Program-made: the position numbers and the translations under genes
The notes under the pieces: model-generated
What the model saw: only the letters and a program-made list of their open reading frames with translations
What the model was told of the DNA's origin: nothing
The model's database searches: none
Shown here: piece by piece, positions 2,205 to 24,571 of the stretch
Position numbering within the stretch: the stretch's first letter is position 1
Layout: each line of letters opens with the position of its first letter
Assembly (NCBI RefSeq): GCF_024699945.1
Contig: NZ_JAJOMY010000001.1
Location: 1-64,000 of the forward strand
Origin: Phenylobacterium sp. J426
Lineage (GTDB): Bacteria > Pseudomonadota > Alphaproteobacteria > Caulobacterales > Caulobacteraceae
DNA: 64,000 nt
Direction of reading: 5' to 3'

Positions 2205-2651
2205 GCGGTTTCCTCGCTTGTGTCGCGTGACAGGTTCTCGCTCATCCGACGCAGAACGCTGAGGGTGATGCGAAGCTCTTCGGGATCGATGCCCTCGGCG
2301 GCCAGGGTGTTGATGCGGCCGGCGATCGGCAGAAGCTCCGCCTTAAGCCGCTCGCCTTCCGGGGTGAGATGGACGTTCTGCTTGCGGCGGTCCTCGGCGT
2401 TGCGCTGGCGACGGATAAGGCCGGCCTTCGTCATCCCCGTTCAGCGTTGTCACCGCAGTCGGCTCGGTGACGTTGTTGAGCTGCGACAGCCGCTTCTGGG
2501 TCGCTCCGTTCTCCTGCCACAGCGCCCGCAGGAAGCCCCAGAAACCCGCCGACACCTTGTGCTCGGCCAGGTGTTCGGTCAGCACCCGCTCGAAGGCGCG
2601 GTGACAGCGGCGGACCTGGAAGCCCAGGCTGTCTTCGGGCTTCACGTCCAT
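2201..2651 (-). CDS. MarR-family transcriptional regulator (one frameshift)
   Basis: Winged-helix MarR protein of about 150 residues, probably the local regulator of the phthalate-type operon. The N-terminal part (MDVKPEDSLGFQVRRCHRAF, then LTEHLAEHKVSAGFWGFLRALW) is the dimerisation helix. The recognition-helix part has QKRLSQLNNVTEPTAVTTLNG. The frame then shifts at about 2435 and resumes with the wing, MTKAGLIRRQRNAEDRRKQN, and the last helices. The DRR motif of the MarR wing is intact. Its ATG at 2651 shares a base with the upstream stop (TGATG), and its own stop overlaps the GST start (ATGA), which implies translational coupling. Similar in build to the MarR protein at 24086-24571. Confidence 0.82.
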
Positions 2652-4762: not shown

Positions 4763-4868
4763 GCCCTTCCCGTCGCCGCCCGCCGAAGCGCCTTCTGGAC
4801 ACTGCGGACCCCGGCTGATTAAATACTTCGAGTTCTAAGTTCTTTGCAACGACGGCCGTGACCCCGCC
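4763..4868. promoter_or_regulatory. Divergent promoter region of the phthalate-type genes
   Basis: This 106-base gap separates the Gfo/Idh operon (minus) from the Rieske oxygenase (plus). An AT-rich core at 4817-4847 is unlike the flanking GC-rich DNA. On the minus strand TTGCAA (4848-4843) lies 18 bases before TATTTAAT (4824-4817), a plausible -35/-10 pair for the operon. The core also holds the inverted repeat ACTT-N8-AAGT (4825-4840), a candidate operator for the MarR regulator encoded downstream. Promoter and operator are inferred from base composition and symmetry only. Confidence 0.45.
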
Positions 4869-6145: not shown

Positions 6146-6166
6146 GCCGCCTGGCGCGTCAGCCGG

Positions 6167-8344: not shown

Positions 8345-8444
8345 AGCATTCCTCCCCATGTGCGCCCCGTCGCGCGCTGGCGCGGGGCTTGTTGGAAAGG
8401 AAGCTACACCCAATTACATAGAATACTAAGCTTTTGTGCGTCGC

Positions 8445-9815: not shown

Positions 9816-9882
9816 GTGCCGGATTCCTCGCCGCTTCTTTTCCTTAGAGATCGAAGTGATTTGCCGTCAGGCCCGGCCAGGG

Positions 9883-9899
9883 TGTCAACGGTTTTGACA
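9883..9899. promoter_or_regulatory. GTCAA-N5-TTGAC palindrome, site 1
   Basis: TGTCAA-CGGTT-TTGACA, a perfect 6-base inverted repeat with a 5-base spacer, lies in the gap between the divergent MFS (8445-9815) and MarR (9956-10423) genes. The right arm doubles as a TTGACA -35 box for the plus strand. The same pattern recurs at 11419, 12049, 15959, 18931 and 32163. Its position just upstream of a marR gene makes that MarR protein a candidate for the binding protein. Confidence 0.6.
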
Positions 9900-9903
9900 A
9901 TCC

Positions 9904-9921
9904 CAGTGAAGCGCTCCACTG
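9904..9921. promoter_or_regulatory. 18-bp palindrome with AGCGCT core
   Basis: CAGTG-A-AGCGCT-C-CACTG is symmetrical except for one base pair. It lies five bases after palindrome site 1 and 35 bases before the MarR start codon, so a bound protein would block that promoter. The AGCGCT centre is shared with LacI-family operators (compare 41688-41705), but no LacI gene is adjacent, so the binder is unknown. Confidence 0.5.
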
Positions 9922-9955
9922 AAATCGCTGGCTGATTTGGGAATGGGCGTACCCC

Positions 9956-10423
9956 GTGGCGGCGCAGGAAAACCTCAAGCCTCTGCTGCTGTCGCTGCTG
10001 CAGGCGTTCTACTGGTGCGACGAGAGCCTCCAGAACTACCTGCGTTCCCGCGGCTGGCCCGAAGTCACGCGGCCCCAGTCGATGGTCATGGCCAACATCG
10101 TGCTGGGCGTGAACCGGCCCTCCGACATCGCCCGCAACATGGGCGTCAGCCGCCAGGCCATCCACTCCACCATCAACCAGATGGTCGACACCGGCATCGT
10201 CGCCCTCGCCGACGACCCGGTGAACCGGCGGGTGAAGATCGTCACCCCGACCAAGCTCGGCGAGACCATGCGCGTCGACGCCCAGCAGGCGATGTTCATC
10301 CAGGCCGAGGAGCTGAGCGCCCGCCTCGGCGAAGACGACTTCCGCCAGCTCACCCGCATCCTCAGCCGCGCCTGGGGCCCCGCCCTCACCTTCGGGCCGG
10401 GGCTGGCGGGTTCGGACGCTTAG
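9956..10423 (+). CDS. MarR-family transcriptional regulator
   Basis: Intact 155-residue winged-helix regulator starting with GTG at 9956. The DNA-binding part is around residues 50-95: RPSDIARNMGVSRQAIHSTI is the recognition helix, and ADDPVNRRVKIVTPTKLG the wing. The N-terminal ENLKPLLLSLLQAFYWCDESLQNYL is the dimer helix. It faces the MFS carrier gene and probably controls it and itself through the palindromes at 9883-9899 and 9904-9921. Because the first palindrome type also occurs at five other catabolic promoters nearby, this protein may act beyond its neighbours; that is inference. No strong ribosome site is visible before the GTG. Confidence 0.82.
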   Translation: MAAQENLKPLLLSLLQAFYWCDESLQNYLRSRGWPEVTRPQSMVMANIVLGVNRPSDIARNMGVSRQAIHSTINQMVDTGIVALADDPVNRRVKIVTPTKLGETMRVDAQQAMFIQAEELSARLGEDDFRQLTRILSRAWGPALTFGPGLAGSDA

Positions 10424-10552
10424 GCGAGCCTCCGCGCCGGCGATCCCCGGACTTGGCCAAGCTCCGCTCCGGGGACCGAGCCTCTCTGACCTCGCTGAGG
10501 CTGGAGCGCGCTCGCCGGACCCCGGCTCCGGCGCATGACGCTTGTGTGGCGC

Positions 10553-11254
10553 TTACGCCTTCACGGCGTGCCAGCCTCTGATCATGAAGGCCTGGAAGAA
10601 CGGAACCGGTCGCGGGAAGCCAGCAGCTTTCCACAGGTCTTCCGTTTCCGTGGGGGTTAGGACGCCGAGCACGCCGCGCATCATGTCTTCCAGCCTCGCC
10701 AGCGACTCCGGTGTCGCGCCCATCAGGACCTGAACGCGCTTCCAGTCCTCCAACGCCTGGGGAAACTCCGCAGCGTCCAGGTCGCCGCTGATCTCGGCGG
10801 TGGCGAGCCGGCCGCCCGGTTTCAAACGATCATGAATGGCCGAATAGAACGCTGGCCGATCGGCTCGCTTGATGAAGTGCGCGACCAGCAAGCTGACAGC
10901 GGCGTCGAACGGGCCGATGGGGGCTTCGTGCACGTATCCTCTGAAGAGCTGGCAACGAGACAGCACGCCAGCCGCTTCGAGACGGCGCCGTCCAACGGCT
11001 AGCATCTCCTCGGAGGGATCGATCCCCACGAACGACCAGCCTGGGTACGCAGCGGCCAAGGACAAGATCTCAGCCCCCGTGCCGACGCCGACGCAAAGCA
11101 CCCGCGCGTCGTCAGGCAGGTCCGCAAGAACGAGTCGCAGGAGAAAGTGCAAGCCGCCGGAGATGGGTGCGAGCGGGCTGTTCCGACGATCGTAGGCGTC
11201 GGCCGCCTCCTGGCTGAAGAAGGCGTGCGAGGCAGGCGCGTCAGTCTGAGTCAT
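10553..11254 (-). CDS. Class I SAM-dependent methyltransferase
   Basis: Intact cytoplasmic methyltransferase of 233 residues. Motif I is VLCVGVGTGAEILSLA, followed by the acidic motif II end FVGIDPSEEML; motif IV is FDAAVSLLVAHF, and LKPGGRLATAEI is the post-IV strand. The substrate is not evident; the N-terminal SHAFFSQEAADAYDRRN is typical of small-molecule rather than nucleic-acid methyltransferases. ATG 11254 is chosen over an in-frame GTG at 11269; neither has a ribosome site. The start lies in the inverted repeat TGTTA-N5-TAACA (11254-11268), possibly an operator. The gene is convergent with the MarR gene upstream and divergent from the SnoaL-like gene. Confidence 0.82.
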   Translation of the reverse strand: MTQTDAPASHAFFSQEAADAYDRRNSPLAPISGGLHFLLRLVLADLPDDARVLCVGVGTGAEILSLAAAYPGWSFVGIDPSEEMLAVGRRRLEAAGVLSRCQLFRGYVHEAPIGPFDAAVSLLVAHFIKRADRPAFYSAIHDRLKPGGRLATAEISGDLDAAEFPQALEDWKRVQVLMGATPESLARLEDMMRGVLGVLTPTETEDLWKAAGFPRPVPFFQAFMIRGWHAVKA

Positions 11255-11418
11255 GTTATAATGTAACACTCAAACAGGGGCGCGGCCAGTCGCCGATCGC
11301 CGGGGCGCCCAACGCATCGGCTCGCATGCCCTTGTGGACCAGGCTCGACGTGCGCCTACCCCTTGCCGGCGTACACGGTGGGCAACGCTCGGACCTAGGC
11401 CGCCGCCCCGACCATGAG

Positions 11419-11435
11419 CGTCAATATTGTTGACG
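11419..11435. promoter_or_regulatory. GTCAA-N5-TTGAC palindrome, site 2
   Basis: CGTCAA-TATTG-TTGACG is a perfect 6-base inverted repeat with a 5-base spacer, 30 bases upstream of the SnoaL-like gene's ATG at 11465. The right arm gives a TTGACG -35 box. An ATG at 11414 would place this site inside the coding region, which argues for the later start. Confidence 0.6.
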
Positions 11436-11464
11436 AACGCCGCTTCCCTCGTGACGCTCCCCTG

Positions 11465-11951
11465 ATGCCGACCTCGCCCGCTGATCCGGCCATGCGCACG
11501 ATCCTGGCCGACATGGTTGTCGCCTATGCGTCCGCACTCGACGACCGCGACTGGGCGCTGATGCGCAGCCTGCTCATGGATCCAGTAGAGATCGACTACA
11601 GCTCGATGGGCTCCATCCGGGGAGACGATCGCAGTCGACGCCTGGTTGAAGCGGTTGGACACCCTCAAGGGCTTCGACGCCACTCAGCACGTCGTCACCA
11701 ACTTCCGGGTCGCGGCCCAGGCCGATGAGGCGACCTGCACATCCTACGTCAACGCCCTCCACTTCCTGACGGAGGACGGGCGGGAGCACGTCGCCCATGC
11801 CTGCGGCGCCTATGTCCACGGCTTCGTCCGCACCCCGGACGGTTGGCGGATCCGAAAGGCGACCTTCCGACTGATCGGTCACCAGAACGGCGCCCGGGCC
11901 TTCCAGGACGCGTTTGCCATCGCTCGTGCGCGGGCCGCTCGGCAACCCTGA
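11465..11951 (+). CDS. SnoaL-like / NTF2-fold protein (frameshifted)
   Basis: Small alpha+beta cone-fold protein of about 162 residues, SnoaL_4 type. It starts MPTSPADPAMRTILADMVVA and has YASALDDRDWALMRSLLMDPVEIDY, the first helix and strand of the fold. The frame shifts at about 11635, then continues with DTLKGFDATQHVVTNFRV and DGWRIRKATFRLIGH. Members serve as isomerases, dehydratases or ring hydroxylase-associated small subunits in aromatic and steroid catabolism. Catalytic residues cannot be fixed from sequence. Start 11465 is preferred because the palindrome at 11419-11435 lies before it. Confidence 0.7.
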
Positions 11952-12048
11952 GCGGAAGTCGCCAAAGCGCCTCGCCCGCACGTTGCGGACCCGACAGAAG
12001 ACTGGACAAAACGGCTCACCTAGGGTCACAATTCTTCGACATCTAAGC

Positions 12049-12063
12049 GTCAAGTGAATTGAC
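12049..12063. promoter_or_regulatory. GTCAA-N5-TTGAC palindrome, site 3
   Basis: GTCAA-GTGAA-TTGAC, a perfect 5-base inverted repeat with a 5-base spacer, lies 78 bases upstream of the TonB receptor gene at 12141. The right arm extends to TTGACA and can serve as the -35 box of that gene. Confidence 0.58.
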
Positions 12064-12140
12064 AGTTCGCAGAACGGCGCCACTCTCCCGCTCAAGTCCG
12101 GTCAACGGACAGGATCGAAACCACAAGGGGGAGGACGGCC

Positions 12141-14364
12141 ATGACCGCCCGGGTTCTGCTTTGCACCACCATGCTTGTCAGCCTGGCCGCCGGCGCGGCC
12201 GCCGCTCAGACCGCTGAGGGCTCCGCCTCGACGCTCGGCGAGATCGTCGTCACCGCCCAGAAGCGCGAGCAAAACCTCCAGGATGTGCCCATCTCGATGG
12301 AGGTCGTCTCCGGCGACAAGATCGAGGACTTCAACACCAACGACTTCAAGCAGCTGGTCTCGTTCGCCCCGAACGTCGCGGTGCAGACCACCGCCGGCAA
12401 CGACACCATCTACATCCGCGGCTTCGGCTCTCCGCCGTCGAACTTCTCGTTCGACCAGGCGGTCAGCCTCTACATGGACGGCGTCTACGCCGGCCGGAAC
12501 CGCCAGGCCCAGTCGCCCTTCTTCGACCTGGCCCGCGTGGAGGTCCTTCGCGGCCCGCAGGGCGCCCCTCTTCGGCAAGAACACGCCGGCCGGCGCCGTC
12601 AGCATCGTCTCGGCGGGCCCGACCTCGACCTTCGAGGGCGAGGTCAACGGCCTCTACAACTTCAGTCTCCGCGGCTACGACGTCTGGGGCCACGTCTCGG
12701 GCCCGATCAGCGACACGCTGGGCGCGCGCCTGGCGGTCAAGGTCACCGACAACAAGGGCTTCCTGCGCAACCTCGCGCTCGACCGGCGCGAGCCGCAGAA
12801 CGAACAGGCGCTGGCCCGACTGACGCTCGCCTGGAACCCCACCGATGCGATCGACTACACGCTGAAGGTCGAGTACGCGAACCGCGAGGTGGCCGGCGGC
12901 GTCAACGTCTCCAGCCCGGTGAACACCGCCCAGAACCCGGACAAGACCCGCTACAGCACGGTCAACCCGATCGGGCCGGAAGGCACCAAGGCGACCTCGT
13001 GGCTGGTGTCGGCCACCGGCAACTTCGACCTGGGCGACTTCACCCTGACGTCGATCACCGGCTACTCGTTCTTCCGGTCGAACATCGTCAACAACTTCGA
13101 CCAGTCGATCCCCGGCGGCGGCTTCACGGCCAACAGCGTCTACAACAGCTATCCCGAGCACTTCCGCCAGTGGTCGCAGGAAGTGCGGCTGCTGTCCCCG
13201 ACCGGTCAGCGCTTCGAGTACATCGTCGGCGCCTACTACGACCAGTCGCTGTACCAGCTGACCCAGCTGGGCGGCTTCAACATCGCGTCGCTGAACTACT
13301 TCGGCCTGCTCAACACCGAGTTCCGGCAGCGCGCCGAGAGCTTCTCGGTCTTCGGCCAAGGCACCTTCAATGTCACCGACGACCTGCGCCTGATCGGCAG
13401 CCTGCGCTACACCACGATCGACAAGCGCGGCGCCTTCTGGGGCCGCCTCCGCTACGGCCCGTTCGCGCTGCGTCCGGTCAACACGACGGCCAACGGCGAG
13501 ATCAAGGGCGAGGACAACTTCGATCCCTCGATCACCGCCCAGTACGACGTCTCGGACCAGATCATGGTCTACGCCACCTATGGCCGCGGTTCGAAGTCGG
13601 GCGGCTTCGTGTCCAACACCTACGGGACGACGAACTCGACGTTCATCTACCGGCCCGAGAAGTCCGAGAACTACGAAGTGGGCGTCAAATCCACCTTCGC
13701 CGACGGCCGCGTGGTGCTGAACCTGTCGGCCTACGACACGAGCTTCAAGGACCTGCAGGTCTCGGTCTACAACCCCACCATCTCCACCTACCAGACGACG
13801 AACGCGGCGAGCGCCAGCTCGAAGGGCGTCGAGGGCTCGCTCTCGCTGTTCCCGATGCGCAACTTCGACATCACGCTGGCCGCCGCCTACCAGGACGCCA
13901 AGTACGACGACTATCCGGGCGCGGCCTGCCTGGCCTCGCAGCCGATCACTCAGTGCAACCCGGCGGTTCCGGCCAGCATCGCGGCGAACAACATCGCCGG
14001 AGCCCCGCTGCAGCACGCGTCGAAGTGGAGCGGCACCCTGCAGGTGCATCAGAAGATCGAACTCGACAACGACATGATGATCGACTGGCGGGCCGCCGCG
14101 TCGGGCCGTTCGAAGTTCTTCAACGCCGACAACCAGGCGCCGACCTTCGGCGTGCAGAAGGGCTACACCAAGATCGACCTGCGGGTTCAGTACGGCCCCG
14201 AAGACGAGCGCTGGCATGTGGCCTTCGTCGGCAAGAACCTGACCGACGAGCTGACCACCGGCTCCAGCTTCAACCTTCCCGCCCCGATCACGGCTGTGCC
14301 GCGGGCGATCCTGTACCTCGAGGAAGGCCGCACCCTCTCGCTTGAGGCGGGTCTGCGCTTCTAA
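12141..14364 (+). CDS. TonB-dependent outer-membrane receptor (one frameshift)
   Basis: Receptor of about 740 residues with a signal peptide (VLLCTTMLVSLAAGAAAA), a TonB-box region (LGEIVVTAQKREQNLQDVPI), a plug with LARVEVLRGPQGA..LFGKNTPAGAV, and a barrel ending SLEAGLRF. The frame breaks only once, at about 12565: GCCCCTC where the family's GTLFGKN would need GCCCTC, a clear C-run insertion. The rest reads without interruption. The ribosome site AAGGGGGAGGA precedes the ATG at a suitable distance. GST 14443-15171 follows 78 bases downstream on the same strand. Likely imports a hydrophobic or aromatic compound; the substrate is unknown. Confidence 0.88.
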
Positions 14365-14442
14365 GGGGCCAAGGGCGGCGCGCTACCTCTTCCCGGCGCG
14401 CCGCCCGCCAGCTTTCCCTGTCTGCGTTCTCCGGAGGCCGGC

Positions 14443-15171
14443 ATGATCGACGTCCACTTCGTTCCCACGCCGAACGGGAACAAGGTCAGCATCATGCTGG
14501 AGGAGGTCGGCCTCCCCTATCGCCTGATCCCGTACGACATGCTGGCGGGCGACCACCTGAAGCCCGAGTTCCGGCGGATCAATCCGAACGGGCGGCTTCC
14601 CGCCATAGAGGACCACGAGCCGCTGGGCGGCGGCGGGCCCGGCTCCTTCTGCGTCTTCGAGTCAGGCGCCATCCTGCTCTACCTCTCGGAGAAGGCCGGC
14701 GGCGCGCTGATGCCCGCCGACCCCCGCGGGCGTTCCGTCGCGATGCAGTGGCTTATGTGGCAGATGGCCGGCTTCGGCCCGATGCAGGGCCAGGCGCACC
14801 ACTTCGTCCGGTACGCCCCGGAAGGCCAGGACTATCCGGTCGGCCGCTACATGAACGAGACGCGGCGCATGCTGGCCGTGCTCGACCGGCGCCTGGCCGA
14901 GGCCGAGTACCTGGCCGGCGACGCCTATTCCGTGGCCGACGTCTCGACCTGGCCGTGGACGCGGGCGATCCGCGCCATCGGCCTCGATCCGGCCGACTGG
15001 CCGAACGTGAACCGCTGGTTCGAGGCCATCGCCGCCCGGCCGGCGGTGCAGCGTGGCACCGAGGTGAAGAACGCCGCCAACCTGTCCAGCGCGCGGCCGG
15101 TGCTGACGCCGGAGCAGTGGTCCAACCTCTTCGGCGAGAACATGCTCAAGAGCGCCGGGGTCGAGGTCTAG
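14443..15171 (+). CDS. Glutathione S-transferase, Nu/Ure2p-like
   Basis: Intact 242-residue GST. The thioredoxin-fold half starts MIDVHFVPTPNGNKVSIMLE with the TPNG motif typical of Nu/Ure2p-like members; FESGAILLYLSEK is the glutathione-binding turn. The C-terminal half holds LAGDAYSVADVSTWPW, the conserved N-capping box/hydrophobic staple region (S..D). It is the intact relative of the GST at 1501-2204. Following a TonB receptor gene, it may act on the imported compound, for example in thiol-dependent ether cleavage or isomerisation. It is convergent with the SDR gene: both stop codons lie in the same CTAG (15168-15171). Confidence 0.88.
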   Translation: MIDVHFVPTPNGNKVSIMLEEVGLPYRLIPYDMLAGDHLKPEFRRINPNGRLPAIEDHEPLGGGGPGSFCVFESGAILLYLSEKAGGALMPADPRGRSVAMQWLMWQMAGFGPMQGQAHHFVRYAPEGQDYPVGRYMNETRRMLAVLDRRLAEAEYLAGDAYSVADVSTWPWTRAIRAIGLDPADWPNVNRWFEAIAARPAVQRGTEVKNAANLSSARPVLTPEQWSNLFGENMLKSAGVEV

Positions 15172-15923
15172 GCGGGCTCGTCGTGGCCCCACTGGCGCTC
15201 CACCCGGCCGCCGGACCGCCGGACCGCCACCCAGTCCCCGCCCGGCAGGCTGTCGTCCCGCACCAGGTCGATCACGGCGTCGGCGATGTCGCGCGGCGCG
15301 CACCGCTCGTTGTTCGCCAGGATCGGCGCCATCCAGTCGGCCGCGCCGTCGGCGCCGGTCTTGTGCAGGATCGGCGTGTCGGTGAGTCCGGGCAGCACGC
15401 CCGCCACCCGCACGTTCCAGTCGCCCTTCAGGCCGGCGCAGCAGCGGGTGAACATCATCACGCCCGACTTGGTGGCTGCGTACATGGCGTCGCTGAAGCC
15501 TTTGCCCAGGACGACCGTGGAGACCGTGTTGACGATCACGCCGCCGCGTCCCCGCATGGCCTGCGCCGCCGTCTGGGTCGCCACGACCACCGACGTCAGG
15601 TTCACGTCGACGATCCACTGCAGCTTCTCGAGCGGCGCTTCCGGGAAGGCCGGGGCGCCGGCCACGACGCCGGCGTTGTTGAACAGCACGTCGTAATCGC
15701 CCAACCCGTTCAGCCAGCCCGGGATCTTCGCGACTTCGGCCAGGTCGATCCGGTGGACGGTCGCCGCCTGGCCGATCCGTTCCGCCGTTTCGGCCAAGCC
15801 CGCCGCATGGACGTCGGCCAGGTGGATCCGCCCGGCGCCCAGCTCCGCGAACGCGAGCGCCGTCGCCTGGCCGATGCCGGCCGCCGCGCCGGTCACCACA
15901 ATGGTGCGTCCCGCAATGTCCAT
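15168..15923 (-). CDS. Short-chain dehydrogenase/reductase
   Basis: Intact classical SDR of 251 residues, NAD(P)-dependent, cytoplasmic. Cofactor motif TGAAAGIGQ is at residues 10-18, followed by the acidic residue of LADV that suggests NAD preference. The structural NNAG motif, the catalytic Ser region NTVSTVV and the YAATK active site (Tyr-x-x-x-Lys) are all present. ATG 15923 follows GGGAGG and begins MDIAGRTIVVTG. It is divergent from the MFS gene at 16035, with palindrome site 4 between them. Likely oxidises a hydroxyl group in the pathway; the substrate cannot be read from the sequence. Confidence 0.88.
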   Translation of the reverse strand: MDIAGRTIVVTGAAAGIGQATALAFAELGAGRIHLADVHAAGLAETAERIGQAATVHRIDLAEVAKIPGWLNGLGDYDVLFNNAGVVAGAPAFPEAPLEKLQWIVDVNLTSVVVATQTAAQAMRGRGGVIVNTVSTVVLGKGFSDAMYAATKSGVMMFTRCCAGLKGDWNVRVAGVLPGLTDTPILHKTGADGAADWMAPILANNERCAPRDIADAVIDLVRDDSLPGGDWVAVRRSGGRVERQWGHDEPA

Positions 15924-15958
15924 CGCCTCGCGCCTCCCGTTTTCGTCACGGCTAAACC

Positions 15959-15973
15959 GTAAACTTTCTTGAC
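15959..15973. promoter_or_regulatory. GTCAA-N5-TTGAC-like palindrome, site 4 (degenerate left arm)
   Basis: GTAAA-CTTTC-TTGAC has the same 5-5-5 layout as sites 1-3 with one changed base in the left arm. It lies between the divergent SDR (15923) and MFS (16035) genes. The right arm, TTGACA at 15969-15974, is a good -35 box for the plus-strand operon. Confidence 0.42.
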
Positions 15974-16034
15974 ATCTTGGGTAGCCCGCCGGACCCTCGG
16001 GATCAAGGCGCGACAGACGCCCGAGGGAGTGGAA

Positions 16035-17341
16035 ATGGCCGAGGCCGCCATCGTGAATCCCGCCGCGCCAGCGGCGGCCCGGCCTGGGCGTCGCCTGGCC
16101 TTGGTGGTTCTGACGGCCATCGGGGCCATCAACTTCCTCGACCGCCAGATCCTCTCGGTGCTGGCCGAGCCTATCCGCCGGGAGCTGCACCTTTCCGACA
16201 CCCAGCTGGGCCTGCTGACCGGCCTCAGCTTCGCCCTGTTCTACGCCGTGCTCGGCGTCCCCGCCGCCATGCTCGCCGACCGGGTCAACCGGGTGAAGCT
16301 GGTCGGCTGCGCCTGCGCCATCTGGAGCCTGTTCACCGGCGCCTGCGGCTTCGCGACCAGCTTCTGGCATCTGGCGGTCGCCCGCTGCGGCGTGGGCCTG
16401 GGCGAGTCCGGCGGCACCGCGCCCTCGCTCTCGATCCTGGCCGACTACTTCCCCCGGAGAAGCGGCCGGCGATCATCGGGATCTTCACCGTCAACGGGCC
16501 CATCGGGGTGTTCCTCGGGGCCACGGTCGGAGGCTGGGCGGCGATCCAGTTCGGCTGGCGCGGCGCGTTCTTCCTGGTCGCCGGCGTCGGGCTCGCCGCC
16601 GCCGCCCTGCTGGTCCTGCTCGTGCGCGAGCCGGTCCGCGGGGGTCTGGACCGCGGCTATGCCGCCAAACCCGCCGCCGCCATGAGTCTCCCGGCCTCGG
16701 CGCGGCTGTTCCTTTCGAAGCCCACCCTTCGCATCCTGTTGGTGGCGAGCGGGCTCGCCGCCTTCGTCAGCACCGGCATGCTGAACTGGATTCCGGCCTA
16801 TCTCATGCGGGTCCAGCAGATGCCCCTGGCCGAGGTCGCCCGCTGGTTCGGCCCGGCGGCCGGCCTCTGCATGGGGGTCGGCATCTGGGGCGGCGGCGCC
16901 CTGGTGAACTGGGCCGGCCGCCGGAGTCCGAAAGCCTATGCCTGGATCCCCGGCCTCTCGATGCTGCTGACCGCGCCCACCCTGGCGCTGGCCTGTTTGG
17001 CTCCCTCCTGGCAGACCTCGCTCGCGCTGATGTGCGTGCCGATGATCTGCTGCACGATGTACGTCGCCCCCGCCCTGGCCCTGGTCCAGAACCTGTCGCC
17101 GGTCGCGGCGCGCGCCACCGCCACCTCTCTGCTGCTGCTGGCCTTCAACATCCTGGGACCCGGCGGCGGCCCGCTGGCCATCGGGATGATGAGCGACGGC
17201 TTCGCCGCGGCCGGGGCCGCCCAGCCGCTGAAGCTGGCGCTCATCGCCACCGCGCCGATCGCACTGGTCTCCGCCCTTCTCTACGCCCGGCTGGCGCGGG
17301 TGGTGGACGCCGACACCCGCAAGGTCCTCGAGGAAACCTGA
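16035..17341 (+). CDS. MFS transporter, spinster-like (one frameshift)
   Basis: Inner-membrane carrier of about 436 residues with twelve helices. GAINFLDRQILSVLAEPIRREL is the first-helix signature, also seen in the MFS gene at 8445-9815. DRVNRVKLVGCACAIW is the loop 2-3 motif, and GVGLGESGGTAPSLSILADYF the helix 4-5 motif. The frame breaks at about 16452, where five C occur and six are needed (YFPPEKRP). The rest is intact. ATG 16035 follows GGGAG. The stop is two bases from the next gene's ATG, so it forms an operon with the SDR and carboxymuconolactone-decarboxylase-like genes. Confidence 0.86.
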
Positions 17342-17343
17342 CG

Positions 17344-18237
17344 ATGAAAGACATCAACGGCCAGACCGCGTTCATCACCGGAGGCGCCAGCGGCATCGGG
17401 CTGGCCACCGGCCGCGCGCTCGCCCGCCGCGGAGCGCGCCTGATCCTGGCCGACCTGGACGCCGAGCGGGTCGAGGCCGTGGCCAAGGACTTCCGCAACG
17501 AAGGCGTCGATGCGCTCGCCGTCCGGCTGAACGTCGCCGAGGAGGCCGAGTGGGCCGCCGCCGGCGAGGCGGCCGCGAACTTCGGGGACGTCCGCATCCT
17601 GTTCAGCAACGCCGGCGTCGGCGGCGGCTCGGGCAGCTTCGAAACCTACGACACCGACGTCTGGCGCTGGGCCTACGCCGTCAACGCCCACGCGCACCTC
17701 TACGCGTGCCGCACCTTCCTGGGCGCCATGAAGGCCAGCGGCAAGCCAGCCCACGTCGCCATCACCGCCTCCATGGTCGGCATCGTCCCGCCGCCCATTT
17801 CCGTGGCCTACATCTCCTCGAAGTTCGCCACCCTCGGCATCGCGCTGGGTCTGCGCAACGAGCTGGCGGATACGAATGTGGGCTTGTCGGTGCTGTGCCC
17901 GGGCATGTCCGCCACGCGCATCGTCGAGACCACCCAGAAGCTACGCCCCGGCGCCGCCGAAGGGGGCCAGGCGGCCCAGACGGCACAGAACATGGGCTCG
18001 GTCCTGGCCTCCGGCATGTCGCCCGACAAGATCGGCGAGCGGGTCGTCCGCGCCATCGAGGCGGACGAATTCTACATCTTCACACATCCCGAGTGGAAAG
18101 CTCTGGCCGAGGCTCAGTTCGCCGACCTGCTGGCCGGCTTCGGCGAGTCCGCCGACCCCGACTATCCCGGCGACGATCTGGAAGGCCTCGTCGCCGCCAA
18201 CGGCGCGCGGCGGATGACCGCCGGCGTCGCGTCCTGA
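17344..18237 (+). CDS. Short-chain dehydrogenase/reductase
   Basis: Intact SDR of 297 residues, longer than the usual 250 because of a C-terminal extension (EWKALAEAQFADLLAGFGES). TGGASGIGLA is the cofactor loop, LADLDAERV carries the acidic residue that favours NAD, SNAGVGGG replaces the NNAG motif, and YISSK supplies Tyr and Lys; ITASM supplies the Ser. The long form with FYIFTHPEWK resembles SDRs of sphingomonad aromatic and steroid clusters. It begins two bases after the MFS stop and is followed 25 bases on by the CMD-like gene. Confidence 0.86.
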   Translation: MKDINGQTAFITGGASGIGLATGRALARRGARLILADLDAERVEAVAKDFRNEGVDALAVRLNVAEEAEWAAAGEAAANFGDVRILFSNAGVGGGSGSFETYDTDVWRWAYAVNAHAHLYACRTFLGAMKASGKPAHVAITASMVGIVPPPISVAYISSKFATLGIALGLRNELADTNVGLSVLCPGMSATRIVETTQKLRPGAAEGGQAAQTAQNMGSVLASGMSPDKIGERVVRAIEADEFYIFTHPEWKALAEAQFADLLAGFGESADPDYPGDDLEGLVAANGARRMTAGVAS

Positions 18238-18262
18238 TCACTCGAAGCCCAAGGATCGAACC

Positions 18263-18903
18263 ATGCCCGTCCTCCGTCAGGTCCCGCGCTCGGAAGTCAC
18301 TGCCGACGTCGTCAACGCCTACTATGATCGTCTCTTCGGACCTGGCCGCGACCCGGTCTCGGAACCCGGCACAGCCACCGGCACCCCTGGCGACTGGTGG
18401 ACGGTCTATGCGCTGTGCCCTGACATCTTCCAGCACGCGGTCGACGGCTTCGCCGTCTATCGGCACCCCAGCCGCAAGATCGATCCAATCCTGCGCGAAC
18501 TCGGCCAGACGCGCGCCGGTTGGGTGAAGGGCAGCCAGTTCGTCTTCTCGCAACACTGCAAGGCGATGCGGGCGCTGGGCGCCCCGAGGAGAAGATCGCC
18601 GCGATCCCGCACTGGACGGTGTCGGATGTCTATGACGAGAAGGAGCGCGCAGTGCTGGCCTACGCCGACTGCCTCACCCTCGGAGACGGGCGCACGCCGA
18701 CCGAAGTGTTCGAGAAGCTCCGCACCTTCTGGGGCGACGAGGAGATCTTCGAGTTCACCTACATCACCACGCTCTACGCCATGCACGCCGTGATCACGCG
18801 TGCGCTGCGCATGGAGTTCGACAACCGCGAGGATCCGATCGTCGAGGTTGCGGCGCCCGAAGGCTTCAACGCCACAGACTTCCTCAGTGGCGCGCGCCGC
18901 TGA
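18263..18903 (+). CDS. Carboxymuconolactone decarboxylase-family protein (one frameshift)
   Basis: AhpD/CMD-fold protein of about 213 residues. The conserved helix QFVFSQHCKAMRALGA has a single Cys-less-than-usual centre (HCKA), where AhpD-like members have CxxC and CMD members have other residues. The frame shifts at about 18580 (GCGCCCCGAG, one C short), then EEKIAAIPHWTVSDVYDEKE and AVLAYADCLT follow, the usual CMD second half. The N-terminal part GDWWTVYALCPDIFQHAVDGF is typical of proteins found beside SDRs in catabolic operons. The reaction is unknown; it is not PcaC, which is encoded at 28487-28867. Confidence 0.72.
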
Positions 18904-18930
18904 GGTCCCGAAAGCGTGATGGCCAAGAAC

Positions 18931-18945
18931 ATCAAGTAAGTTGAC
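18931..18945. promoter_or_regulatory. GTCAA-N5-TTGAC-like palindrome, site 5, and promoter of the VOC-enolase operon
   Basis: ATCAA-GTAAG-TTGAC differs from the consensus in the outermost left base only. The right arm extends to TTGACG (18941-18946), followed 15 bases on by TTAGAT (18962-18967), a candidate -10. The first gene of the operon starts at 19069. The location between the upstream MFS-SDR-CMD operon and the new operon supports a separate promoter. Confidence 0.5.
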
Positions 18946-19068
18946 GTTTGAGCGTAAAACCTTAGATTCCTATCTACTGAAACCCATTTGCCGCTGTGCG
19001 AGGCGGCGCAGGCCGGTATCGTCTCTCAGAAACCGCGCCACGCCGCACAGACGGCGACGGAGGAAGCC

Positions 19069-19677
19069 ATGGCGAAGCCGAACACCGAATTCGAGATCCG
19101 CGGCGTCAACCACCTCGCCCTCGTCTGCAAGGACATGGCCGAGACGGTGAAATTTTACCGCGACATCCTGGGCATGCCGCTGACCAAGACTATCGATCTG
19201 CCCCGCGACCTGGGCCAGCACTTCTTCTTCGATATCGGCAACGGCGACAGCCTGGCCTTCTTCTGGTTCAAGGACGCTCCTCCCGCTCAACCAGGCCATG
19301 CTTCCCCAAGCGCGTTGCCGACCCAAGGCTCCTTTGTCTCGGCGCATGGCTCGATGAACCACATCGCCTTCGACGTACCGGCCGAGAAGTTCGACGCCTA
19401 CGTTCAGAAGCTGAAGGACAAGGGGATCGCGGTGTCGCAGATCCTCAACCACGACAACTCGGAGACCGGCTCCAGCGCCGAGGTCACCGACGACGTCTTC
19501 GTCCGTTCCGTCTACTTCTTCGACCCCGACGGCGTGTGCCTGGAGTTCGCCTCATGGGTGGGCAAGCCGTTCGACGACGATGACGTGGCGCATGCTCCGA
19601 TGAAGGCCGACGGCGTCCGCGACGAGAGCGTGATCACCCCGCTCGCCAAGCGCCGGAAGCTGCAACCCGCCGAGTAG
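19069..19677 (+). CDS. VOC (glyoxalase/extradiol dioxygenase-like) metalloenzyme
   Basis: Intact 202-residue VOC-fold protein. The first beta-alpha-beta-beta-beta unit starts VNHLALVCKDMAETVKFYRD (metal-ligand His in NHLAL). The second starts GSMNHIAFDVPAEKFDAYV with a further His, and YFFDPDGVCLEFASW carries the terminal Glu ligand. A His-His-Glu set fits a divalent metal site. VOC enzymes include extradiol dioxygenases, epimerases and glyoxalases; the sequence does not decide between them. ATG 19069 has GGAGGAAGCC upstream. It is the first gene of the operon to 24037. Confidence 0.85.
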   Translation: MAKPNTEFEIRGVNHLALVCKDMAETVKFYRDILGMPLTKTIDLPRDLGQHFFFDIGNGDSLAFFWFKDAPPAQPGHASPSALPTQGSFVSAHGSMNHIAFDVPAEKFDAYVQKLKDKGIAVSQILNHDNSETGSSAEVTDDVFVRSVYFFDPDGVCLEFASWVGKPFDDDDVAHAPMKADGVRDESVITPLAKRRKLQPAE

Positions 19678-19706
19678 AGCGGGCCATCACAACCTGGAGG
19701 ACTCCG

Positions 19707-20090
19707 ATGGATGAGGCCGCGATCCGCGCCTTCGCCAAGCGCTTCTTCGACGCCATCGAACAGGGCGACGTCGACACGGTGCGCGACAGCTACACGCCCG
19801 ACGTCGAGATCTGGCACAACTTCGACGACCTCATCCAGACCCGCGAGGAGAACGTCGAGACACTGAAGGGCATGGTCGGCCGCATCAGCGACCGCGTGTA
19901 TGACAACCGACGCCTGGAAGTGTTCGCCGACGGCTTCGTGCAGCAGCATGTGCTGCGCGGCACCCGCAAGGACGGGAAGCGCGTGAGCCTGCCGGCCGCC
20001 CTGATCGTCAAGCTGAGGGACGGGAAGATCGCCCGCCTCGACGAATACATCGACAGCGCCCACGTGGCCGTCTTCCGACAGACGTTCTGA
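19707..20090 (+). CDS. SnoaL-like / NTF2-fold protein
   Basis: Intact 127-residue cone-fold protein. AIRAFAKRFFDAIEQGDVDT is the first helix, YTPDVEIWHNFDD the strand with a conserved aromatic/His pair, and RLDEYIDSAHVAVF the last strand, typical of the SnoaL-like family (compare limonene-epoxide hydrolase and ketosteroid isomerase folds). Possible roles are isomerisation, hydration or dehydration. The ribosome site CTGGAGGA lies just before ATG 19707. It is followed by the kinase gene after 10 bases. Confidence 0.8.
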   Translation: MDEAAIRAFAKRFFDAIEQGDVDTVRDSYTPDVEIWHNFDDLIQTREENVETLKGMVGRISDRVYDNRRLEVFADGFVQQHVLRGTRKDGKRVSLPAALIVKLRDGKIARLDEYIDSAHVAVFRQTF

Positions 20091-20100
20091 CATCCCCGCA

Positions 20101-21102
20101 ATGGGGGCGGCGTCCGACATCCTCGGCTGGCTGCGGGACGCGGGTCTCGCCGCGCCCGATGAAGCGCCGGCGATCGCGCCGCTGACCGGCGGCGTCTCGA
20201 GCGACGTGTTCCGCGTCGAACTGCGAAGCGGGCCTGTCTGCGTGAAGGCGGCGCTCGACAAGCTGCGGGTGGCCGCCGATTGGCGCGCCCCGGTCGAGCG
20301 CTCGGCCAACGAGGCTGCCTATCTGCGCGTCGTGGCGGGACTGGGCGGCCTGACCGTGCCGCAGGTGCTGGCTGCGGACGGGCGTCGAAACATCTTCGCC
20401 ATGACGTGGTTCGAACCCGTCGATCATCCGGTGTGGAAAGCCGAACTCGCCGCTGGGCGCATCGATCCGGGCTTCGCCGCCACCGTCGGCGCAGGGCTGG
20501 CGCGCATCCATTCGGCGACGGCGCGCGAGCCGGAGATCGCCCGGGCCTTCGACACCACGGCGATGTTCGACGCCCTGCGGCTGGAGCCCTATCTCACGCA
20601 CACTGCCGTGGCGCATCCAGGCCTCGCCGCCCGGATCGGCGCCATCGCCGAGGTCACGCGGACGACCCGGCTCGCCCTCGTCCACGGGGACGTCAGCCCC
20701 AAGAACATCCTCGTCGGCCCGCACGGCCCCGTGCTGTTGGACGCCGAGTGCGCCTGGTACGGCGATCCTGCGTTCGACGTCGCATTCTGCCTCAATCATC
20801 TGCTGCTCAAGGCCGTCTGGAACCCTTCCCACAAGGCCGCTTACGGCGAAGCGTTCGACGCGCTGGCCGCGGGCTATCTCGCCGGTGTCGAATGGGAGCC
20901 GCCCGCGGCGCTCCAGGGCCGCGCGGCGCCATTGCTCGCCACGCTTCTGCTGGCCAGGATCGACGGCAAGTCGCCCGTCGAATACCTGACGGCGGAGGCG
21001 GACAAGGCGCTGGTCCGCGAGACCGCCTGCGCGCTGCTGGCCGGAGAGATTGCGCGCTTCGCGGACGTGCGGCAGGCGCTGTTCGCAAGACTGGGACCCT
21101 GA
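20101..21102 (+). CDS. APH-type small-molecule kinase
   Basis: Intact 333-residue protein of the aminoglycoside/choline phosphotransferase fold. A glycine-rich loop (TGGVSSDVFRV, residues 29-39) is followed by Lys49 in VCVKA and Glu71 in NEAAYL. The catalytic loop HGDVSPKNIL has Asp197, and LLDAECAWYGDPAFDVAF supplies the metal-binding Asp214 region. All the residues needed for ATP-dependent phosphoryl transfer to a hydroxyl are present. Such kinases next to catabolic genes often phosphorylate alcohols or hydroxyacids rather than drugs. The stop shares a base with the enolase-like start (TGATG), so the two products are made together; the kinase may supply the phosphorylated substrate. Confidence 0.85.
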   Translation: MGAASDILGWLRDAGLAAPDEAPAIAPLTGGVSSDVFRVELRSGPVCVKAALDKLRVAADWRAPVERSANEAAYLRVVAGLGGLTVPQVLAADGRRNIFAMTWFEPVDHPVWKAELAAGRIDPGFAATVGAGLARIHSATAREPEIARAFDTTAMFDALRLEPYLTHTAVAHPGLAARIGAIAEVTRTTRLALVHGDVSPKNILVGPHGPVLLDAECAWYGDPAFDVAFCLNHLLLKAVWNPSHKAAYGEAFDALAAGYLAGVEWEPPAALQGRAAPLLATLLLARIDGKSPVEYLTAEADKALVRETACALLAGEIARFADVRQALFARLGP

Positions 21103-22400
21103 TGAAACACACAATCACCGCCGTCCGGGCCCGGCAGTTGTGGGACAGCCGAGGGCGCCCGACCGTCGAAGCCGAGATCGAACTCGCGGGTGGTTCGATC
21201 GGCCGCGCCATGGCCCCCGCCGGCGCCTCGCGCGGGGCCCACGAGGCGATCGATCTGCGCGACGGCGGCGAGGCGTTTGGCGGCTATGGCGTCGCGCGCG
21301 CCACGGCGGCGGTGAACGGCGCGATCGCCAAGGCCCTCGTCGGCCGCGACGTGCGCGACCAGGCCGGCCTCGACGCCGTCCTGGAACAGCTCGACGGCAC
21401 GCCCGCCTTCGCGCGTCTGGGGGCCAACGCGGCCGTCTCCACCTCGCTCGCCGCCGTCCATGCCGCGGCGGCCGCGGAGGGAATGCCGCTCTGGCGCTAT
21501 CTGGCGGACGGCCGCAAGGTCCGCGTCCCGCTGCCCGAGATCCAGATCTTCGGCGGCGGCGCTCATGCCGGGCGGCGGACCGATGTGCAGGACTTCATGG
21601 TGATGTGTCCGCGCGCGCCCACCGTGCGGCGCGCGTTCGAGATCACCGCGGACGTCTACCGGGCGGCGGGCGCGATCATGGAAGAGTCCGGGCGCCTGGC
21701 CGGCGTCGCCGATGAGGGCGGCTGGTGGCCGCTGTTCACCTCCAACGAGGAGGCTCTGGAGACCCTGGCCCACGCAATCGACCGCAGCGGCCATAAGGCC
21801 GGCCACGACGTCTTCATCTCGCTGGACGTTGCGGCGAACGAACTCTCCCACGACGGTGGCTACCGCCTGCCGCTGGACGGGGCCGAGCTCACCTCCGAGC
21901 AGATCGTCGACCGCGTCGCGGTCTGGACCGCCAAATACCCGATCCTGTCGATCGAGGACCCCGTCAGCCAGGACGACATGGCCGGCATGGCGCTGGCCAC
22001 CGAACGTTTCGGCGGCACGGTCCAGCTCATCGGCGACGACTTTCTGGTGACCAACGCCGAGCGCGTCCGCCGCGCGGCGGAGAACCGCGCCTGCAACGCG
22101 GTGCTGGTGAAAGTGAACCAGGCCGGAACGGTCAGCCGCGCCAAGGCCGCGCTCGACGCGGCGCGCGAGCTCGGCTGGAGCGCCATCGTCTCGGCCCGCT
22201 CAGGCGAGACGGAGGACGTCAGCATTTCGCATCTGTCGGTGGGCTGGGACGCCGGCCAGCTGAAAGTCGGCTCGTTCACCCGCTCCGAGCGCATGGCGAA
22301 GTGGAACGAGCTGCTCCGCATCGAGGAGCAGATGGGATCGGACGCGGAGTATGCGGGCTTCGGGGCCCTTCCGGCGTCGGTTGCGGCGGCGCACGCATGA
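21102..22400 (+). CDS. Divergent enolase paralogue
   Basis: Intact 432-residue enolase homologue of full family length, cytoplasmic. DSRGRPTVEAEI matches the enolase N-terminus. Kept catalytic or metal residues by motif: His155 (GGGAHAG), Glu205 (DEGG), Asp242 (SLDVA), Glu285 (SIEDP), Asp312 (IGDD), base Lys337 (VKVNQ) and Lys388 (LKVGS). Changed: the loop reads PAGASRG where enolase has PSGASTG, and Ala365 (VSARSGETED) replaces the histidine of VSHRSGETED that contacts the substrate phosphate region. Glycolytic enolase keeps that His, so this one probably acts on another substrate, by the same proton abstraction alpha to a carboxylate. It overlaps the kinase (TGATG) and the dehydrogenase (ATGA). 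Confidence 0.85.
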   Translation: MKHTITAVRARQLWDSRGRPTVEAEIELAGGSIGRAMAPAGASRGAHEAIDLRDGGEAFGGYGVARATAAVNGAIAKALVGRDVRDQAGLDAVLEQLDGTPAFARLGANAAVSTSLAAVHAAAAAEGMPLWRYLADGRKVRVPLPEIQIFGGGAHAGRRTDVQDFMVMCPRAPTVRRAFEITADVYRAAGAIMEESGRLAGVADEGGWWPLFTSNEEALETLAHAIDRSGHKAGHDVFISLDVAANELSHDGGYRLPLDGAELTSEQIVDRVAVWTAKYPILSIEDPVSQDDMAGMALATERFGGTVQLIGDDFLVTNAERVRRAAENRACNAVLVKVNQAGTVSRAKAALDAARELGWSAIVSARSGETEDVSISHLSVGWDAGQLKVGSFTRSERMAKWNELLRIEEQMGSDAEYAGFGALPASVAAAHA

Positions 22401-23345
22401 AGGCCGTCCTGCAGTACCGCGCGAGCCCTGGCTTCCTCGCCGAACTCGAACGACGCGCCGTCGTCGACGGGTTTGACTGGGCCTGCGTCGACGAGACGGA
22501 CGAGGCGGCCTTTGCACACGAGATCGCCCAGGCGGAGGTGCTGCTGCACGTCCTCAAGCCGGTCAGCGCGGCCATGATGGATCAGGCTCCCGGCCTGAAG
22601 CTGATCCAGAAGCTGGGGGTCGGCGTGAACACGATCGACCTGGAGGCCGCCAAGGCGCGCGGGATCGCCGTCTCCAACATGCCCGGCACGAACAGCCAGG
22701 CGGTGGCCGAGATGACGCTGGCCCTGCTGTTCGCCGTGCTGCGGCGCATCCCCTACTTCGATCCGCTGGTCCGGGCCGGCGAGGGCTGGCGGCCGGACCC
22801 TGCCGTCATCGACGCGAGCGGCGAGGTGGCCGGACGGACCGTCGGCTTCCTCGGCTATGGCGGCGTGCCGGCCCGGCTAGCCCCGGTGTTCAAGGCGCTC
22901 GGCGCCGAGGTGATCTACAACGCCCGCACGCCGAAGCCCGACGTCCTTGGCCGCGCGGTCAGCTTCGACGAACTGATCGCGAGGGCCGACATCCTGTCGC
23001 TGCATGCGCCGCTCACGGAAGAGACCCGCGGCATTATCGACGCGGACGTGCTCGCCCGCATGAGTCCAGGCGCGATCCTCATCAACACCGCGCGCGGGGA
23101 ACTGGTGGATCAGTCGGCGCTGCACGCCGCATTGGCCTCCGGCCACCTCCGCGGCGCGGGCCTGGATGTCTTCTCGCAGGAGCCGGTCGACCAGACCGAT
23201 CCGCTCTTCGCGCTGCCAAACGTCGTGGTGGCGCCCCCACGTGGCCTGGCTCACCCCCGAGACGTTGTCGCGCAGCCTCGATGCTGCGTTCGAGAACTGT
23301 CGCCGGCTGCGCGACGGCCGGCCGCTCAATAACCAGGTGGTCTGA
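22397..23345 (+). CDS. D-isomer-specific 2-hydroxyacid dehydrogenase (one frameshift)
   Basis: NAD(P)-dependent dehydrogenase of about 315 residues (SerA/GyaR type without an ACT domain). VGFLGYGGVPARLAPVFKAL is the nucleotide-binding loop, INTARGELVD carries the catalytic Arg, and DVFSQEPV the Glu. The frame breaks at about 23235 (five C where four are needed); repairing it gives APHVAWLTPET with the catalytic His and an end NNQVV. Such enzymes interconvert 2-oxo and 2-hydroxy acids. ATG 22397 overlaps the enolase-like stop, and the repaired stop shares a base with the hydrolase ATG (23345), so all three are coupled. Confidence 0.84.
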
Positions 23346-24037
23346 TGGCCGTTGTCCTCGTCACCGGCCAGCTCCTGACCCACGAGGTCTGGGGTGAAAG
23401 CCTCCCGGCGCTCCAGGCGGGCCACGAGGTCATGCTCGCCGACCACACCCGCGACGACTCGATCGGCGGCATGGCCGAGCGGCTGCTGGCCGCCGCGCCC
23501 GCGCAGTTCGACCTGATCGGCCAGGCCATGGGCGGCTTCGTCGCCTTCGAGGTGTTGCGCCGGGCGCCCGAGCGGGTCCGCCGCCTCGCCCTTCTCACAA
23601 CGCTCGCGCCTAACGACGGCCCGGCTCAGACCAAGCGGCGGATGGGCTACATTCGCCTGGTGGAGGATGGCCGGTACGCCGACGTGGTCGAGGAGCGGAT
23701 CCCGATCCTGGTGCACCCTGCCCGTCGCGAGGACCGCCCGCTGCTCGGGATCGTCCGCCGCATGGCGGAGGACACCGGCGCGGAGACCTTCCTGATCCAG
23801 CAACGGGCGATCATGTCCCGCGCCGATAGCCGCCCCGGCCTCGGCCAGATCCGTTGCCCGACGCTGGTCGTCTGGGGGCGTCAGGACGGCATCACCACCG
23901 AGCAGCACGCGACGGAGATCGCCGCCGGCATACCCGGCGCGACGCTCGAGACGATCGAGGACTGTGGTCACCTGACGACGCTGGAAAAGCCGGCGACGAC
24001 CGCCCGCCTGCTCGCGGAATGGTTCGGCGCGGCCTGA
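23345..24037 (+). CDS. Alpha/beta-hydrolase-fold protein lacking the nucleophile
   Basis: Intact 230-residue alpha/beta-hydrolase-fold protein. The nucleophile elbow reads GQAMGG (residues 59-64) where GHSMGG is usual, so Ala61 stands in the serine position. The acid (Asp181 in WGRQDGI) and base (His209 in DCGHLT) are kept. No signal peptide. Loss of the serine with a retained His-Asp pair suggests chemistry other than ester hydrolysis, such as lyase or cofactor-free dioxygenase-like activity; a non-catalytic role is also possible. Last gene of the 19069-24037 operon, coupled to the dehydrogenase (TGATG). Confidence 0.82.
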   Translation: MAVVLVTGQLLTHEVWGESLPALQAGHEVMLADHTRDDSIGGMAERLLAAAPAQFDLIGQAMGGFVAFEVLRRAPERVRRLALLTTLAPNDGPAQTKRRMGYIRLVEDGRYADVVEERIPILVHPARREDRPLLGIVRRMAEDTGAETFLIQQRAIMSRADSRPGLGQIRCPTLVVWGRQDGITTEQHATEIAAGIPGATLETIEDCGHLTTLEKPATTARLLAEWFGAA

Positions 24038-24085: not shown

Positions 24086-24571
24086 ATGAGCAAAGCCCGC
24101 CCGACGGACTTCTACGCCGATCCCAACAACAGCATCGGCTACCTCACGCGGATCGCCTTCCGCAGCTTCTCGCGCGCGCTGGAGAAGCGCACCCTGCCCC
24201 ACGGCGTCACCGCCGGCCAATGGCGCTTCCTGCGGGTTCTCTGGCGCGAGGACGGCCTGACCCAACGCGAGCTTTCCCGCCGCGTCGGCATGCGCGAGCC
24301 CACCACCGTCACCGCCCTGAAGAGCCTTGAGCGCAGCGGCTTCGTCACACGCAGGCAGAGCGCCGAGGACCGGCGCAAGACCCACGTCTTCCTCACGCCC
24401 GAAGCCAAGGCGCTGCAGGCGACGCTCGCGCCCTGTGTCGCCGAAGTGAACGAGATCGCGCTTCAGGGCCTGAACGACGATGAGGTCGCGACCCTGCGCC
24501 GGCTGCTGCAGCACGTCGGCCGCAACCTCGGCCCGGAGGGCGACGACGCCCCGCTGGACGCACCTGTCTGA
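24086..24571 (+). CDS. MarR-family transcriptional regulator
   Basis: Intact 161-residue winged-helix regulator. IGYLTRIAFRSFSRALEKR is the dimer helix. LTQRELSRRVGMREPTTVTALKSLERSGFV is the DNA-recognition region, and RRQSAEDRRKTHVFLT the wing with its DRR signature. It resembles the MarR protein at 2201-2651 in length and order. It lies 48 bases after the enolase-like operon on the same strand and 60 bases before the FMN reductase, so it may regulate either; no operator was recognised in the gaps. Confidence 0.86.
   Translation: MSKARPTDFYADPNNSIGYLTRIAFRSFSRALEKRTLPHGVTAGQWRFLRVLWREDGLTQRELSRRVGMREPTTVTALKSLERSGFVTRRQSAEDRRKTHVFLTPEAKALQATLAPCVAEVNEIALQGLNDDEVATLRRLLQHVGRNLGPEGDDAPLDAPV

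Follow-up and report, generated by a model that had tools for sequence, protein, structure and literature searches.

An APH-family kinase and a variant enolase form a conserved gene pair in Phenylobacterium sp. J426 and distant prokaryotes, with a possible role in the dehydration of sugar-type acids

In the first 64,000 nucleotides of contig NZ_JAJOMY010000001.1 of Phenylobacterium sp. J426 (hereafter, the window), the gene of an APH-family kinase overlaps that of a variant enolase within an operon-like group of six genes. This pair of genes occurs in Alpha- and Betaproteobacteria, Acidobacteriota, actinobacteria and haloarchaea, and its enolases constitute a distinct and widespread subfamily tied to the kinase, which is a broader phenomenon than an earlier note on this DNA, made from the sequence alone, could perceive. 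It can be proposed, with a probability of about 0.52, that the two proteins act as a two-step ATP-dependent dehydratase of a 2,3-dihydroxy acid larger than glycerate, likeliest of the sugar-acid (aldonate) type. The six genes are the following:

19069-19677, + strand: VOC-family protein, 202 aa (Pfam Glyoxalase, 72.6 bits)
19707-20090, + strand: SnoaL-like protein, 127 aa (Pfam SnoaL_2, 54.1 bits)
20101-21102, + strand: APH-family kinase, 333 aa (Pfam APH, 72.3 bits)
21102-22400, + strand: variant enolase, 432 aa, with D168, A207 and A370 in Escherichia coli numbering, Met = 1 (TIGR01060, 448.8 bits)
22397-23345, + strand: D-2-hydroxyacid dehydrogenase, frame broken at the C run 23234-23238 (2-Hacid_dh_C, 171.8 bits)
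23345-24037, + strand: alpha/beta hydrolase, 230 aa, PcaD-like (Abhydrolase_1, 64.9 bits)

The coordinates and the Pfam and NCBIfam matches bear out the description in the earlier note of six genes of these families running in one direction, and the frames read agree with its statement that the last four overlap (TGATG between kinase and enolase, ATGA between enolase and dehydrogenase, TGATG between dehydrogenase and hydrolase), an arrangement from which the co-translation of these four genes may be predicted. Gaps of 29 and 10 bases separate VOC from SnoaL and SnoaL from the kinase, respectively. The hydrolase scored below the cut-off of the PcaD-type family (TIGR02427, 79.8 vs 255.85).

At the family level the kinase was matched in 39 of 199 genomes and the kinase region was taken from 20 of them. 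The enolase adjoins the kinase in 11 of these 20 relatives, accompanied by the dehydrogenase (11/11) and the hydrolase (10/11). The VOC gene adjoins the kinase in divergent orientation in six of the 11 and lies elsewhere, lies behind another gene or is absent in five, and SnoaL was detected in six, never adjoining the kinase. With no constant place beside the kinase, these two proteins, to which a part in shaping the carbon skeleton had been attributed, no longer stand as fixed members of the pathway.

A larger set of 111 kinase loci (named genomes, plasmids, relatives and the window) contains 108 distinct kinase sequences; further pairs of loci come from a single organism (e.g., L044/L104) and many loci are metagenome-assembled genomes. 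The enolase belongs to the predicted kinase operon in 84 of the 111. As the contig profile search took the best 80 of 440 confirmed matches, its sample is skewed to close relatives and a sample of the class is fairer. Among the 385 alphaproteobacterial genomes of this class sample, a kinase scoring at least 160 bits was present in 38 besides the genome under study, and the enolase was found within the stretch taken in 32 of these 38 loci (L214, picked via its second enolase, is excluded from this count), with less than 130 bases between the kinase and enolase matches in all pairs but one. One of the six loci without the enolase, that of genome G473, is cut by the contig end, and an enolase start is present there. 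Where kinase and enolase are neighbours on the same strand, the kinase comes first in 82 of 88 pairs, and the genes overlap in 67 of the 88, by exactly four bases in 53.

Fifteen genomes encode the kinase without a nearby enolase, and in 10 of them (G473 included) a variant enolase is encoded elsewhere, in three cases near VOC genes of the kind seen in the window. A search for enolases in 150 order-level genomes yielded more than one match in eight besides the genome under study; five of these have a complete second enolase, and the kinase lies beside it in 5/5. Canonical and variant enolases occur together in 10 of 12 genomes searched. Confinement of the neighbourhood to this one genome, which the earlier note had named as an objection to its own proposal, was checked, and the pair proved to be widely conserved.

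An order-level locus, L252 (G307:C26), has nearly the same partners (VOC, MarR, MetE-like, hydrolase, dehydrogenase and kinase) and a variant enolase of another subtype, with S155 instead of G155, as if the enolase subtypes had been exchanged.

The match to the enolase family settles the fold of the variant protein, which scored 448.8 bits against the curated model TIGR01060 (cut-off 300) and contains the Pfam domains Enolase_C (281.1 bits) and Enolase_N (151.1 bits). The 86 kinase-linked copies are about 42-51% identical to E. coli enolase; this number (86/105) includes any enolase encoded in the stretch taken, and some of them lie apart from the kinase. According to the alignment, where covered, these copies carry D168 (86/86), A207 (84/84) and A370 (83/83); the class sample showed the same residues at every covered position, and one additional variant copy has C207. 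Canonical enolases carry E168, G207 and H370 in 30/30, likewise in the further canonical copies read, and thus the canonical contacts to the C3 hydroxyl, E168 and H370, are absent from the covered kinase-linked copies. Unchanged where covered are the magnesium ligands D246, E290 and D317, the base K342, the phosphate residues S42, H159, R371 and S372, the carboxylate residues Q167 and K393, and E209, which we take to be the general acid of enolase. The inhibitor SF2312 has a hydroxyl in the place of the substrate C3-OH, and in E. coli enolase this group bonds Glu167, Lys392 and His369, according to the available text of PMC6863902, in which residue numbers are one lower than those used here. 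Two of the three contacts named there are changed in the variant, and the phosphate, carboxylate, magnesium and base residues named in that same text are kept. Considering the residues kept and changed, the variant should still abstract the C2 proton of a C2-phosphorylated acid, with altered surroundings at C3.

In a tree of 64 sequences, built by a quick method, with no bootstrap and without canonical haloarchaeal enolases, a single branch separates 38 kinase-linked from 26 canonical enolases with a support of 100 in the Shimodaira-Hasegawa-like approximate likelihood ratio test (SH-aLRT). The variant therefore shares with the glycolytic enolase (EC 4.2.1.11) the full-length match, the metal ligands, the base, the acid and the phosphate and carboxylate residues, but differs from it in E168D, G207A and H370A, in a branch of its own, in having a kinase gene as partner and in being a second copy in the genome.

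The kinase scored above the 23.2-bit cut-off of PF01636 (APH), and residues H195, G196, D197, N202 and D214 are invariant in 21/21 sequences; HGD...N plus a later D is presumably the catalytic motif of APH superfamily kinases. Its closest solved relatives in a profile search of the PDB were 2pyw (E 2.5e-13), listed as uncharacterized, and 2olc (E 4.9e-11), a methylthioribose kinase, which is a sugar kinase. The score against the methylthioribose kinase model TIGR01767 (54.9 bits) stayed below the cut-off of 275. The window kinase shares the APH family with methylthioribose kinase and the small-molecule kinases of APH fold, but its partner is an enolase. It also falls outside glycerate kinase classes I-III, since its sole Pfam match at E 0.001 was APH. 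Glycerate kinases comprise three unrelated families, of which classes I and II can yield the 2-phosphate; the word aminoglycoside is absent from the available text of the paper describing them (PMC2063504). Compared with glycerate kinases I, II (MOFRL) and III, the window kinase would likewise take a 2-hydroxy acid but belongs to a different family.

Altogether, the wide conservation, the four-base overlaps, the co-occurrence of both genes when unlinked and the active-site changes on the C3 side support the participation of kinase and enolase in a common function. The proposal of the earlier note that the kinase readies a hydroxyacid for an enolase-like dehydration is upheld in this respect; the substrate, the order of the steps and the fate of the phosphate are what we infer below.

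The dehydrogenase would convert a 3-hydroxy-2-oxo acid into the 2,3-dihydroxy acid, the kinase would transfer phosphate onto the C2 oxygen, and Lys342 of the variant enolase would take the C2 proton with expulsion of the C3 hydroxyl. The product would be a C3-substituted phosphoenolpyruvate, effectively a 2-oxo-3-deoxy acid in its enol phosphate form, and, after loss of the phosphate, the 2-oxo acid would be split by hydrolases (alpha/beta in the window, FAH elsewhere) or aldolases. Family matches place the dehydrogenase among the enzymes that reduce 2-oxo acids; locus L107 has an operon without it and a ketopantoate-reductase-type gene before the kinase. We consider it more likely that the dehydrogenase acts ahead of the kinase, as the source of the 2,3-dihydroxy acid, than that it acts after the loss of phosphate, as the earlier note proposed.

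As dehydration would leave the phosphate on the C2 oxygen to which it was attached, the kinase could retrieve it. A tentative extension, which we consider rather improbable, is that the pair uses ATP only catalytically, the kinase returning the phosphate of the enol phosphate to ADP and leaving the 2-keto-3-deoxy acid. There is room for this idea because a pyruvate kinase gene was seen on one contig only (counted as 2/153 loci), for which reason a dedicated pyruvate kinase had been dropped as a candidate. If true, it would represent a soluble, iron-sulfur-free route to 2-keto-3-deoxy acids built from the chemistry of lower glycolysis, spread over Proteobacteria, Acidobacteriota, actinobacteria and haloarchaea.

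The preference for a sugar-type acid as substrate of the proposed dehydratase comes from gene contexts. In Paracoccus and Roseibium, kinase, enolase, FAH and SDR genes lie beside a sugar ABC transporter, LacI and TTT transporters, and no dehydratase is annotated within about 19 kb, in plasmid gene tables that can be incomplete. The Paracoccus FAH protein is closest to 2,4-didehydro-3-deoxy-L-rhamnonate hydrolase (352 bits, under the cut-off of 500). FAH, two GFO/IDH/MocA genes and DUF6807 are found in L196, and an aldose 1-epimerase in L253; L119 has RraA, MR/MLE and ADH genes, L087 has a GarD-type dehydratase, and haloarchaeal loci contain an annotated galactonate dehydratase, MR/MLE and RraA. 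As described in PMC6336799, Route III runs through an acid-sugar dehydratase, then an SDR and then an FAH-family hydrolase, and their genes are often clustered with those of sugar ABC transporters. The Paracoccus and Roseibium loci have in common with that account the FAH, the SDR, the sugar ABC transporter and a regulator around the pair, and they differ from it in that kinase and variant enolase occupy the position of the dehydratase, with none annotated there; the window has another layout, with an alpha/beta hydrolase. By analogy, the simplest common reading of the sugar-type contexts suggests that kinase and enolase may perform the dehydration.

DUF6807 genes near kinase-enolase genes were located at L196:8218-9141 and L085:8306-9205. 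A MetE-like gene (Meth_synt_2) near the hydrolase and MarR genes was observed at L055:14077-15138 and in 15 other loci, mostly of Phenylobacterium type, with no match anywhere in the window.

Several observations weigh against a dehydratase of sugar-type acids. The dehydrogenase belongs to only 45 of the 111 predicted kinase operons, 36 of which also include the enolase, and five of the 15 genomes with an unlinked kinase showed only a canonical enolase. PEP (phosphoenolpyruvate) carboxylase beside the dehydrogenase and kinase in two Rhizobium plasmids suits plain PEP as product. A GarD/UxaA-type dehydratase adjoins the pair in L087, so the pair is not always a substitute for such an enzyme. 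The nearby HpaD-like dioxygenases of Rhizobium, Cupriavidus and Sphingobium suggest other substrates, some pairs have PdxH and FBPase genes as neighbours that indicate no obvious pathway, and the window cluster itself was judged richer in aromatic-type than in sugar-type genes.

The PEP carboxylase, the HpaD-like dioxygenases, the dehydratase of L087 and the housekeeping-type surroundings keep alive the main rival explanation, an alternative glycerate branch in which hydroxypyruvate or tartronate semialdehyde would be reduced to D-glycerate, phosphorylated by an APH-fold glycerate 2-kinase and converted into PEP by the second enolase. All the enzyme classes fit this scheme, the matches of the dehydrogenase include glycerate and glyoxylate reductases, and no MOFRL glycerate kinase was seen in the genome of the window or in five order-level relatives; however, such a kinase is already present in 8 of 15 kinase-bearing genomes, and the scheme explains neither the replacement of two C3-hydroxyl contacts in every covered copy nor the existence of a second enolase beside the canonical one. 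A glycerate branch is thus possible, though it appears unlikely.

More doubtful is a variant enolase that expels another C3 group (e.g., sulfite, amine, thiol or aryloxy) from a 2-phosphorylated acid to give ordinary PEP. The residues changed are those that contact the leaving group in the available text of PMC6863902, and GST and MetE-like genes are recurrent in Phenylobacterium-type clusters. However, a sulfur or amine theme was unseen in the other annotated loci and neighbours scanned, where no search dedicated to it was made. The conserved E209, assuming its role as the acid, points to hydroxide as the group that departs.

That the enolase is a non-catalytic scaffold or regulator of the kinase, as the two active-site positions altered in all covered copies might suggest, is very improbable, given that no covered copy deviates at the metal, base, acid, phosphate or carboxylate residues and that the enolase can be encoded apart from the kinase.

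Two other candidates were dropped. One was a vitamin B6 branch, considered for the PNPOx/PdxH-type gene found upstream of the pair in eight loci, with FBPase in six, so that these surroundings look like a housekeeping neighbourhood. The other was methionine salvage, considered for the similarity to methylthioribose kinase and the MetE-like gene; the searches did not extend to the other salvage genes.

The promoter palindrome reported in the earlier note as site 5 does exist upstream of the VOC gene, and a MarR gene follows the hydrolase:

18928-18948, + strand: MarR-type palindrome AACATCAAN5TTGACGTT (AACATCAAGTAAGTTGACGTT), one mismatch from the ideal
24086-24571, + strand: MarR-family regulator (Pfam MarR, 56.7 bits)

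The palindrome, in the operon promoter, is near AACGTCAA-N5-TTGACGTT. Its core TCAAN5TTGA is present at four places in the window, where 0.21 would be expected, and site 5 is one base short of the perfect form GTCAAN5TTGAC. Genome-wide, the perfect form was found only at three sites of the cluster, at most 2.2 kb apart, plus their contig-end duplicates; as a reversed control pattern gave five matches per strand, the motif is unusual by its crowding and not by its genome-wide count. A scan of 15 relatives placed the core between the VOC and kinase genes in eight and ahead of VOC in one; four have none in the stretch scanned. Since a MarR gene is located near the kinase cluster in family-level relatives too, the protein encoded at 24086 is probably the reader of the palindrome. 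A second MarR-type gene is present at window position 9956.

More copies or near-copies of the palindrome were noticed at window positions 9883, 11419, 12048, 15958 and 32162; a MarR-type gene, a TonB receptor, an SDR and a CoA-transferase are among the genes located after or around these sites. The sites across the window may represent a candidate regulon. The cluster in the window comprises TonB receptors, an MFS transporter, GST, SDRs, a GFO/IDH/MocA protein and a CoA-transferase.

The dehydrogenase cannot be read through, as its frame shifts within the C run 23234-23238 and the frame leading into the TGATG overlap starts only downstream of it; the C-terminal histidine motif of the enzyme would, we assume, be expected just after the break. 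Relatives have longer single open reading frames (e.g., 348 codons in L039). The contig ends with 19,950 bases (G000:C1:4101400-4121349) that repeat window positions 1786-21728 with 99.785% identity (eight mismatches and 35 gap positions, nearly all of a single G or C). This repeat is an untrimmed circular overlap, not a second true copy of the cluster, an idea that was rejected, and it serves as a gauge of the indel error of the assembly, about one difference per 570 bases between two readings of the same circle. At this rate an assembly error best explains the break in the dehydrogenase frame; the repeat ends inside the variant enolase and does not reach the dehydrogenase, so this explanation is only probable.

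Other genes have similar features. The housekeeping enolase of the genome (G000:C1:3197003-3197855) is likewise split into two frames, probably by another assembly indel. An MFS-type gene (window about 15969-17341) and a gene at 18263-18903, labelled CMD-like by eye and with no Pfam match for its pieces, show apparent frame changes, and their open frames differ in the contig-end copy.

In a word-based search of the open-licence literature, no title among those listed concerned the kinase-enolase pair, and in public annotation the variant genes appear as eno, phosphopyruvate hydratase, with a glycolysis term. The marker residues separate the variant from the glycolytic enolase at once. If the proposed dehydration is true, enolase, deemed among the most fixed enzymes of metabolism, would be joined by a sister family that has a substrate and a private kinase of its own, and for many orphan catabolic clusters a defined and assayable central step would be at hand.

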